A stretch of DNA of 41,309 bases, from assembly GCA_021825445.1 (NCBI GenBank), contig JAKAHA010000009.1, positions 1 to 41,309 on the forward strand. The letters run 5' to 3'. The DNA is from a bacterium. GTDB lineage: Bacteria > Patescibacteriota > Microgenomatia > UBA1406 > GWC2-37-13. Every line of letters starts with the position of its first letter. Within the stretch, counting starts at the first letter, position 1. The notes under the pieces are model-generated. The model made no database searches. It was not told the DNA's origin and was given only the letters and a program-made list of their open reading frames with translations. Of this stretch, positions 10,761-13,380 are shown one piece after another. The translations under genes were made by a program, and so were the position numbers.

Positions 10761-12155
10761 TTAAATTTTTTTGATTTTGTAAGCATCCCCTACGTCCTCA
10801 ATCTTAAATCCTGCTTTTTCGATTTTGATTCGTAGTCGATCGGACATATCAAAGTTTCTCTGTCTTCTTGCTTCAAGTCTCCTTTCAGCAAGTGTAATAA
10901 TATTGGCATCAATTTTTTCTTCTACGATACTTCCTAAATTTAATCCAAAAACTTTATCAAAATCAGTGAGTAAAAAATATTTTTCTTCATTTGTGATATC
11001 TGATTTGATCATATCCCACATGACGGCTACGGCTTGGGGAGTTTGGAGATCATTTTCTATAGCAGATTTAAACTGCTGCTGAAAGGCGATTGCCTTGGTG
11101 GATTTGAGGGGTGTGGGGGCGTTGTGGGGTTTTATATTGGTGGCGATTTCTTTTAATCGATTAAAAGCTTCAAGACTTGCTCGGGCAGATTGCCAGGTGA
11201 AATTAAGAGGTTGACGGTAATGTGATTGTAAAAACAAAAGTCGAAGTGATAGCGGGTCAATTTTATTTTTTTCAATATCTTCAAGTGTATAAAAATTACC
11301 CAAAGATTTACTCATTTTTTGTCCATCAACAGTCAAAAAATTATTATGAAACCAATATTTTACAAACTGTTTACCAGTTGCTCCTTCCGACTGGGCAATT
11401 TCATTTTCATGATGAACTGGGACATGATCAATTCCCCCACTGTGGATATCAATTGTTTCACCCAAATATTTCATGCTCATAGCAGAACATTCGATATGCC
11501 AGCCTGGGAATCCCTCACCCCAAGGCGACGACCAATGCATAGTATGGTCGGCAAAACGCCCAACTCTTTTAAACCATAAGGCAAAATCAGCAGGATGTTT
11601 TTTATCGTTATCAACGACCACCTCTTCCCTACTTGCTTGAATTTTTTCCTCTAATTTTTGCCCAGATAATTTTCCGTAACTATTAAATTTCATGACGTCA
11701 AAATAAATTGCCTCCGGTGTTTCGTAGACGAATCCATTTTGTTTCAATCTATTGATCAGCTGAATCATCTCTTGGACATGCTCAGTAGCTTTGCAAGTAA
11801 CGCTAGGTCGTAAAATATTTAAGGCATCGGTAGTTTTGAAGAAAAAATCAGTATAAAATTTGGCTACATCCCAGACAGTCTTTCCGTATTTTTTTGCTCC
11901 TTTTTCCATCTTGTCAACTCCCGAATCGTCATCGCCTGATAGATGACCGACGTCGGTTATATTCATCACTTCATTAACTTTAAACCCTAGGTATGTTAGT
12001 GTCCTTCTTAAAACATCATTGTTGGTGTATGTCCTCATGTGACCAATATGAGTAAAGTCATAGACTGTTGGTCCACAGGCATAAAAAGAAACATTTGGAG
12101 GACTTGATGGAATAAATTCTTCAATTTTTCGAGTTAAGGTATTGTAGAGTTTCAT
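10761..12155 (-). CDS. cysS: Cysteinyl-tRNA synthetase
   Basis: 464 residues, class I synthetase charging tRNA-Cys. It has zinc ligand Cys27 in FYACGPTVYDF, signature HIGH (36-39), the zinc-site regions GWHIECSAMS and HHENEIAQSEGATG, and KMSKSLGN. The C-terminal helical and anticodon-binding part ends with the CPR-typical EARRQRNFDMSDRLR. It lies 19 nt after the cysK stop with no promoter seen between, so both genes should be under the Cys leader-peptide attenuator at 13082-13210. That joins cysteine supply and cysteine charging in one operon. Confidence 0.97.
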   Translation of the reverse strand: MKLYNTLTRKIEEFIPSSPPNVSFYACGPTVYDFTHIGHMRTYTNNDVLRRTLTYLGFKVNEVMNITDVGHLSGDDDSGVDKMEKGAKKYGKTVWDVAKFYTDFFFKTTDALNILRPSVTCKATEHVQEMIQLINRLKQNGFVYETPEAIYFDVMKFNSYGKLSGQKLEEKIQASREEVVVDNDKKHPADFALWFKRVGRFADHTMHWSSPWGEGFPGWHIECSAMSMKYLGETIDIHSGGIDHVPVHHENEIAQSEGATGKQFVKYWFHNNFLTVDGQKMSKSLGNFYTLEDIEKNKIDPLSLRLLFLQSHYRQPLNFTWQSARASLEAFNRLKEIATNIKPHNAPTPLKSTKAIAFQQQFKSAIENDLQTPQAVAVMWDMIKSDITNEEKYFLLTDFDKVFGLNLGSIVEEKIDANIITLAERRLEARRQRNFDMSDRLRIKIEKAGFKIEDVGDAYKIKKI

Positions 12156-12174
12156 AGTGACTAGTATAACAAAA

Positions 12175-13050
12175 TTATAATAAACTTAGATATCTGTCAC
12201 CTCGGTCTGGAAAAATGGTAACAATAGTTCCTGATTTAATTTTTTTAGCTACCTCAATTGCTCCCCAAAGAGCGGCTCCAGATGATATTCCAACCGATAA
12301 CCCTTCTTTTTTAAATAGATCATTCATTAGTTCAAAAGCAATCTCATCTTTTATGTCCAATTTACTATCCAATTTTGTTTCTTCATAGATAGACGGTACG
12401 TATTCCTTCATATTTCTTAATCCTTGAATTTTTGAGCCTTGCATCGGTTCAACACCAATGATTTTAATATTTTTATTAAATTCTTTTAGTCTTTTCCCGA
12501 CACCCATTAAAGTTCCACCCGTTCCCATTCCGGCAACTAAGTGAGTAATATTTGGAACTTGATTTATAATCTCTACTCCTGTTGTTTGGTAGTGTGCCAG
12601 AACATTGGCGGGGTTATTGAATTGATCGATCATAAGATATTTTTTTTCATTTTTTATCAATTGATGAGCAAATTCGATAGCATAATTGGTTCCTTTTGAA
12701 CCATCGGTCAAAATAATTTCCGCTCCATATTTTTTGAGAATTTTTTGTCGTTCAACACTAACACTTTCTGGCATTACTGCAGTAAATTTATATTTTTTTA
12801 TTGCAGAAATCATTGCCAATCCAATTCCAGTATTTCCACTAGTTGGCTCAATAATAACTGTATCTGATTTTATTAAGCCCTTGTTCTCTGCGTCTTTAAT
12901 CATATAAAAAGCAATACGATCTTTGATTGACCCGCCAGGATTACTACCTTCAAGTTTGGCTAAAATTTTAATTTTTAGACTTGGCGAATAACGACTAAGC
13001 TCAATTATTGGTGTATTTCCGATTGTTTGTAATAAATTTTTATATTTCAT
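12175..13050 (-). CDS. cysK: Cysteine synthase (O-acetylserine sulfhydrylase family)
   Basis: 291 residues. PLP enzyme making cysteine from an activated serine and sulfide. It has PLP lysine K43 in NPGGSIKDRIAFYM, the substrate loop EPTSGNTGIGLA, the phosphate-binding GMGTGGTLMGVGKRL, and the C-terminal SSGAALW. It is slightly shorter than E. coli CysK (about 320). No serine acetyltransferase is in the window. The ATG follows an A/T-rich leader without Shine-Dalgarno. The gene lies 32 nt past a strong terminator that follows a 22-residue Cys-rich ORF, so expression probably depends on antitermination. Confidence 0.94.
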   Translation of the reverse strand: MKYKNLLQTIGNTPIIELSRYSPSLKIKILAKLEGSNPGGSIKDRIAFYMIKDAENKGLIKSDTVIIEPTSGNTGIGLAMISAIKKYKFTAVMPESVSVERQKILKKYGAEIILTDGSKGTNYAIEFAHQLIKNEKKYLMIDQFNNPANVLAHYQTTGVEIINQVPNITHLVAGMGTGGTLMGVGKRLKEFNKNIKIIGVEPMQGSKIQGLRNMKEYVPSIYEETKLDSKLDIKDEIAFELMNDLFKKEGLSVGISSGAALWGAIEVAKKIKSGTIVTIFPDRGDRYLSLL

Positions 13051-13081: not shown

Positions 13082-13103
13082 AAAAACCCCGCCTTTCGCG
13101 GGG
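13082..13103 (-). terminator. Attenuator terminator before cysK
   Basis: Minus strand: CCCCGC GAAAG GCGGGG followed by TTTTTCTTTTT, a textbook intrinsic terminator (arms 13103-13098 and 13092-13087). It lies between the Cys leader ORF and the cysK start, in the direction of the operon. Confidence 0.85.
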
Positions 13104-13159
13104 GTCTGTAAAAAAAATTTTGAGTTTTAACAGATAAACCTCCCGCAGACGTAGGAGGT
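13098..13159 (-). promoter_or_regulatory. Alternative RNA pairings of a cysteine attenuator
   Basis: Region 1 ACCTCC (13159-13154) can pair with region 2 GGGAGGT (13144-13138). Region 2, as GCGGGAGGT (13146-13138), can instead pair with region 3 ACCCCCGC (13105-13098): 8 pairs with one bulged A. Region 3 also contains the 5' arm of the terminator. A ribosome stalled at Cys codons 11-12 would cover region 1 and free region 2 to pair with region 3, preventing termination. A ribosome reaching the stop would cover region 2 and let the terminator form. Confidence 0.7.
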
Positions 13160-13195
13160 ACAACAAGAAGAATTTTTTACAAAATATTTTTTCAT
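13127..13195 (-). CDS. Cysteine-rich leader peptide (22 residues) of cysK-cysS
   Basis: A 22-codon ORF, MKKYFVKNSSCC... with Cys at positions 11, 12, 17 and 22 (18% Cys) and stop TAA. Its ATG is 6 nt downstream of a perfect extended -10 box, so it would be translated from a leaderless transcript. It is followed by the terminator at 13082-13103 and then by the cysteine synthase and Cys-tRNA synthetase genes. Codons 11-12 (TGT TGT) stand directly before the first arm of the leader hairpin, the position expected for a ribosome-stalling sensor of charged tRNA-Cys. The role is inferred from layout by analogy with trp and his leader peptides. Confidence 0.75.
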   Translation of the reverse strand: MKKYFVKNSSCCTSYVCGRFIC

Positions 13196-13201
13196 AGTAT
13201 G

Positions 13202-13210
13202 ATTATAACA
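13202..13210 (-). promoter_or_regulatory. Extended -10 promoter of the Cys leader operon
   Basis: TGTTATAAT on the minus strand. The predicted transcript start falls on or next to the A of the leader ATG (13195). No good -35 is visible, as expected for an extended -10 promoter. Confidence 0.65.
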
Positions 13211-13306
13211 TGGTCTATTCTTAATATATCCACTACAATTTACCACTCGCCTTTTCAGTACTATTCGTACACGACTCGTGGATGGTGTGCTTAAGAGTTT
13301 CTAAAG

Positions 13307-13380
13307 TCGGAGTAGGCAGACTTGAACTGCCGACCTCAGCGTCCCGAACGCTGCGCTCTAGCCATCTGAGCTATACTCCG
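13307..13380 (-). tRNA. tRNA-Pro (anticodon CGG)
   Basis: The acceptor stem CGGAGTA/TACTCCG is perfect, with discriminator A. D arm GCTCAGATGGCTAGAGC; anticodon stem CAGCG/CGCTG around loop TTCGGGA (anticodon CGG); T arm GGCAG TTCAAGT CTGCC. CCA is not encoded. It begins immediately downstream of the stop codon at 13381, and the Cys leader promoter follows about 100 nt later. Confidence 0.97.

Follow-up and report, generated by a model that had tools for sequence, protein, structure and literature searches.

The region upstream of cysK in the 41,309-nucleotide stretch of DNA analysed here (the window) contains a putative transcription attenuator of the ribosome-mediated, trp/his type that is predicted to sense cysteinyl-tRNA, a reading held at a probability of roughly 0.88. 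The sequence and its comparison with relatives establish the leader open reading frame (ORF), the conserved position of its Cys codons, the mutually exclusive RNA strands, and a terminator associated with cysK, and from these we infer the transcription start, translation, ribosome stalling and cysteine response of the leader. The host genome is 1.02 Mb in size and 97.5% complete. No match to ribosomal protein uL30 (rpmD) was found in this genome, while 10/14 control genomes have a match. Lack of this protein is a known trait of CPR bacteria, and the host is probably a member of this group (Patescibacteria).

The element lies between a tRNA-Pro gene (13306-13380) and cysK, with all features of the window described here encoded on the reverse strand. 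A -10 promoter element, TATAAT (13202..13207; TGTTATAAT in its extended form), matches the consensus at 6/6 positions and is located 6 nt 5′ of the ATG of a 22-codon ORF, MKKYFVKNSSCCTSYVCGRFIC (13127..13195, ATG to TAA), that is predicted to be leaderless and has homologous Cys-rich leaders in relatives. Read from 13195 to 13127, this ORF carries Cys codons at positions 11, 12, 17 and 22, of which the tandem pair at 11-12 (TGT TGT, 13160..13165) is the putative regulatory pair and has counterparts in most leaders of relatives. Strand 1, ACCTCCT (ACCUCCU in RNA; 13153..13159), is the partner of strand 2 (13138..13146; GCGGGAGGT in DNA, GCGGGAGGU in RNA), which can pair instead with strand 3, ACCCCCGC (13098..13105). 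Strand 3 in turn pairs either with strand 2 to give the antiterminator or with strand 4, GCGGGG (13087..13092), the 3′ arm of a GC-rich intrinsic terminator identified by a terminator scan together with its U-tract of five T residues (13082..13086). The putative principal regulated gene, cysK (12175..13050), encodes a cysteine synthase of the cysK/cysM type (TIGR01136 cysKM, 360 bits against a cut-off of 344; PALP), and is followed by cysS (10761..12155), encoding a cysteinyl-tRNA synthetase (TIGR00435, 437 bits against a cut-off of 340). The short ORF with its four Cys codons, the terminator and the two genes had been listed in a preliminary description of this DNA, and all of them are present; its placing of the host among CPR bacteria also agrees with the size of the genome and its missing uL30. 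For cysE, the window's genome gave weak matches only, all below the cut-off.

Cysteine makes up 0.66% of the residues in ORFs of the window, and the probability of finding at least four Cys in 21 codons is approximately 1e-5. A scan of the window recovered an intrinsic terminator behind a short clustered-Cys ORF at this site only, and 0/100 dinucleotide shuffles of the window contained this combination; the folding of the leader is 3.2 s.d. below that of shuffled sequence. On the same strand, the end of the tRNA-Pro gene (13306) precedes the terminator by roughly 200 nt, and the terminator could in principle belong to that tRNA unit, with the short ORF arising by accident. The failure of shuffled sequence to reproduce the combination and its conservation before cysK in several families, for the most part with no tRNA upstream, leave such a coincidence hardly credible and strongly disfavoured.

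Under the attenuator reading, transcription would start at the ATG or within a few bases of it, and the leader peptide would consequently be translated from a leaderless start during RNA synthesis. With Cys-tRNA plentiful, the ribosome would reach the stop codon and cover strand 2, allowing the 3:4 terminator to form and switching cysK off. With Cys-tRNA scarce, the ribosome would stall at codons 11-12 and, with Cys codon 12 in its A site, cover strand 1, so that strand 2 would capture strand 3 once it is made; no terminator would then form and the polymerase would read into cysK and partly into cysS. If the leader were not translated, the 1:2 and 3:4 helices would both form and transcription would stop.

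The geometry of the leaders is consistent with this scheme. The preliminary description had placed the tandem Cys codons directly before strand 1 and the stop codon where a ribosome covers strand 2, an arrangement that holds in the 18 leaders measured. A stalled ribosome whose A site holds the last codon of the Cys cluster would cover strand 1 in 18/18 leaders, including all six core bases in 16/18, and no base of strand 2 in 18/18. When positioned at the stop codon, the ribosome covers strand 2 wholly or partly in 18/18 leaders, with 5-6 of the 6 core bases covered in 16/18. Before strand 4 has been synthesised, and with strand 1 masked, the computed probability of the 2:3 helix is at least 0.83 in 18/18 leaders, and with a ribosome at the stop codon the 3:4 terminator forms with a computed probability of 0.91 or more. 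At equilibrium, with strand 1 hidden and the terminator complete, the computed probabilities for the window copy are 0.05 for 2:3 and 0.94 for 3:4. The antiterminator proposed earlier exists as a pairing, but thermodynamics alone do not favour it in the window copy; the terminator being the more stable structure, antitermination there would have to rest on kinetics, with 2:3 forming first. Kinetic trapping of the antiterminator is the accepted explanation for trp.

The mutually exclusive 1:2, 2:3 and 3:4 pairings, proposed in the preliminary description as a trp-type set, are present in the window copy and recur in relatives with coordinated changes among the strands. In a structural alignment of 15 leaders with the strands placed by hand, 97.8% of the cells belonging to helices 1:2 and 3:4 form pairs, and five pairs have changed on both sides, exceeding 500/500 shuffles and all slid controls. 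All strands change in concert in genomes G209 (GCTCCC/GGGAGC, twice) and G095. Covariation in 2:3 alone is weak because the columns of this helix hardly vary. MAFFT alignments of whole leaders put the strands in the wrong places, and the seed of R1, a covariance model of the Cys leaders, was therefore assembled from segments whose loops and spacer had been brought to the same length by trimming or N-padding, which makes the R1 E-values rough.

Within the class, cysK is rare, identified in 29/373 genomes by strict search. Two class-level draws provided 28 cysK orthologues after the exclusion of divergent PLP enzymes, fragments and a broken copy in G035, and a scan of genome contigs yielded distant cysK loci only. 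A complete Cys-codon leader with terminator is present at 19/28 orthologues, including that of the window, each made up of a short ORF that contains two to five Cys codons and, beyond it, an intrinsic terminator with U-tract, located immediately 5′ either of cysK or of an intervening small gene. Examples from relatives include MKNISYQNSCCCTSYLTGRFIC, MKIQNVLVCTCTTLL, MNISINRVVCCCTS and MIKIGQTINLNCCCSLICMGACLFG, and these leaders occur in families f1, f2, f16, f25, f30 and f44. One further leader (G064) is cut by the contig end but retains strands 3 and 4 together with the terminator. Relatives that keep cysK and lack the ORF or pairing had been named as the evidence that would count against the attenuator; they form the lesser part of the 28, with one locus carrying a T-box-like element and seven carrying neither. 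Six of these seven cysK genes lie close behind another gene on the same strand, and a scan of extended stretches upstream of these operons found no Cys leader; the seventh (G261) has a promoter-like sequence immediately 5′ of cysK. The T-box-like element (G210, L057 / L177) is located directly before cysK, where relatives carry the Cys leader, and matches RF00230 with an E-value of 1.5e-4 and 31 bits, short of the gathering score (93). This locus represents the exchange of one predicted sensing system for another, and exchange between T-box and leader peptide has precedent at other genes (PMC2965389).

A C-C or C-x-C motif occupies the tandem-Cys position in 17/19 leaders, one of which (G019) uses the synonymous TGC TGC; across the leaders, Cys is encoded by TGT 41 times and TGC 10 times. 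Most relatives have -10-like boxes 6-14 nt 5′ of the leader ATG, several of them poor matches to the consensus. As the first search was partly guided by Cys content, the loci were scanned again by geometry only. Candidates had to show an ATG preceded at 5-14 nt by a -10 box, an ORF 10-30 codons long and, 60-150 nt further on, a terminator. Exactly one candidate was recovered at 15/20 cysK loci, every one of them a Cys-rich ORF, one with an earlier in-frame ATG. Of the five loci missed, four carry no more than a weak -10 box and the fifth is the T-box locus.

With four Cys in 22 residues, the ORF might instead encode a functional Cys-rich micro-peptide, for example one binding metal or involved in redox chemistry, with the terminator merely separating it from cysK, and a GRFIC ending is indeed conserved in three genomes of one family. 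Leader length (13-25 residues) and the sequence outside the Cys pair nevertheless vary freely among families, while the Cys codons stay in register with strand 1 and codons for other amino acids occupy that same place before other biosynthetic genes, making a peptide function very unlikely.

A second alternative, that the leader acts mainly on translation by hiding or freeing the ribosome binding site of cysK, draws on the presence of Shine-Dalgarno-like GGGAGG sequences in strands 2 and 4. In G104 and G014, strand 4 (GGGAGG/GGAGG) lies approximately 8-10 nt 5′ of the cysK ATG, and PMC13236596 and PMC9031893 report the leaderless polycysteine uORFs of mycobacteria as acting by translation attenuation. 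In the window, however, strand 4 is GCGGGG and is separated from the cysK ATG by approximately 36 nt that contain no Shine-Dalgarno-like sequence, and an intrinsic terminator with a U-tract is present in all complete leaders; a mainly translational mode of action is considered unlikely, and transcription attenuation is preferred. A second Cys-rich short ORF, MENMNNYLVNSQLCYFCCCRIFVHQYY, was observed in G005 (L004, approximately -510 to -420 relative to cysK), directly after the terminator of the attenuator and before a ParB-like gene and cysK, and is possibly a second, translational layer.

Control of the cysK-cysS pair, as first proposed, finds support at cysK, with a leader at 19/28 orthologues, but is too broad in taking in cysS. 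The sequence TATACT (12163..12168), 7 nt 5′ of the cysS ATG, is a probable separate leaderless promoter, and the same arrangement is found at cysS in relatives, where many copies have an ATG preceded at 6-9 nt by a -10-like box. Among 24 cysS loci without cysK upstream, the geometry-only scan returned one candidate (G088), also Cys-rich, and no Cys leader was found near cysS in the remaining 23 relatives. The probable separate promoter at cysS and the scarcity of cysS leaders in relatives argue that the attenuator belongs to cysK; cysS can benefit from read-through and probably has its own promoter, and attenuator control of cysS would be at most partial. In G088 (L152, 1035 onward, reverse strand), the Cys leader MVFTSFSCCAACNPFLGGRVVHVT and its terminator are followed by a small unknown gene and cysS. 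In G035 (L013/L139), cysK is broken by frame changes beside an intact cysS, and no Cys leader was found in the scanned region upstream of the broken gene.

A structured-RNA-like repeat was also observed between tRNA-Pro and the leader (13215-13292, reverse strand), with the core TACGAATAGTACTGAAAAGGC at 13249-13269. Four copies are present in the window's genome, against 0 for a backwards-pattern control, and further copies occur in G015, G244 and G227, located between the Cys attenuator and cysK in the latter two. The repeat forms nested stems with compensatory changes, the outer stems having decayed in the window copy, and matched no Rfam family.

Searches with R1 unexpectedly recovered leaders that share this layout but carry other codons, including four in the window's genome. 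These comprise a His leader (HH), MKQFNNITVCSVFHHTSPQAGSPFM (L130, contig C10), before hisG-hisD; an Ile/Val/Leu leader (IIVLI), MKNQMSIIVLITPLNCGVMK (L124, contig C29), before genes encoding an aminotransferase and acetolactate synthase (ilvB); a Thr leader (TTTT), MNLNINGTTTTLV (L131, contig C11), before epimerase-like and glycine C-acetyltransferase-like (kbl-like) genes; and a Phe/Tyr leader (FYFYF), MKNVAAQKFYFYFDPPCGGGCSC (L126, contig C27), before DAHP-synthase-like and aroB-like genes, both named from sequence with no curated model. The 1:2, 2:3 and 3:4 pairings are present in all four. The Thr leader stands, unexpectedly, on apparent threonine-degradation genes. Among relatives, leaders rich in Phe/Tyr stand before pheS, DAHP synthase and ADH synthase genes, an SSSS leader precedes a serA-type gene, and other leaders precede hisC and thrC. 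The correspondence between leader codons and downstream genes is a strong argument that codon content is sensed. The candidates of the window's genome appear to share one grammar, in which the regulatory codons are often followed by Thr-Ser/Pro codons that themselves form strand 1. Matches to R1 at 25-35 bits include ordinary terminators, and no total count of attenuators is therefore claimed.

Leaders rich in Thr or Cys/Thr codons (e.g. MEKIILNNCCTTTTRLLWEDW) were additionally observed at L116, L104, L123 and L081 before genes with no Pfam or NCBIfam match, two such attenuators standing in tandem at L116; the leader codons may offer a clue to what these genes do. The candidates of the window's genome cover at least Cys, His, Ile/Val/Leu, Thr and Phe/Tyr, and leader-peptide attenuation with leaderless leader ORFs is likely to be a general regulatory system of the phylum.

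The element resembles the proteobacterial trp, his, leu, thr, phe and ilv attenuators in its tandem sensed codons, its 1:2/2:3/3:4 strands, a stop codon over strand 2, and an intrinsic terminator followed by a biosynthetic gene. It differs from them in its predicted sensing of cysteine, its putatively leaderless ORF, its shorter strands of 6-9 bp and its probable CPR host. None of the Rfam leader families (Trp_leader, Phe_leader and others) matched at the curated cut-off, the best match being Phe_leader at 41 bits versus 55 (G062). The leaderless polycysteine uORFs of mycobacteria resemble the window leader, itself predicted to be leaderless, in being short ORFs with clustered Cys codons before a cysteine or sulfur gene; unlike these, the window leader has an intrinsic terminator and antiterminator. 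PMC9031893 and PMC13236596, citing Canestrari et al. 2020 (doi 10.1111/mmi.14498), report the mycobacterial uORFs to be cysteine-responsive through a translational mechanism, and Cys-rich leaders without a conserved terminator hairpin have been predicted in Actinobacteria (Seliverstov et al. 2005, PMC1262725). T-box riboswitches (RF00230) sense uncharged tRNA and control amino acid genes by antitermination, but bind tRNA directly without translation; no T-box match was found in the window at the gathering score, and the window leader has no T-box features. Leader-peptide attenuation has been described for Proteobacteria, Actinobacteria and Firmicutes (PMC2965389), and in agreement with the preliminary description, which had regarded attenuation by ribosome stalling as apparently undescribed in CPR bacteria, no description from this group was found in the literature searched, which largely did not cover subscription journals. 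What appears to be new is a predicted variant of trp-type attenuation that is cysteine-specific, putatively leaderless, equipped with an intrinsic terminator and located in a probable CPR host.

If this reading is true, a single 1-Mb genome would hold a cysteine attenuator with an intrinsic terminator and at least four other amino-acid attenuators, elements that are short enough to be tested with reporters in a laboratory strain. Codon clusters would then predict the amino acid connected with each controlled gene, genes of unknown function included. Reduced 1-Mb cells would couple transcription closely to translation, sensing charged tRNAs gene by gene, and some ultra-small bacteria would own a full amino-acid attenuation network.
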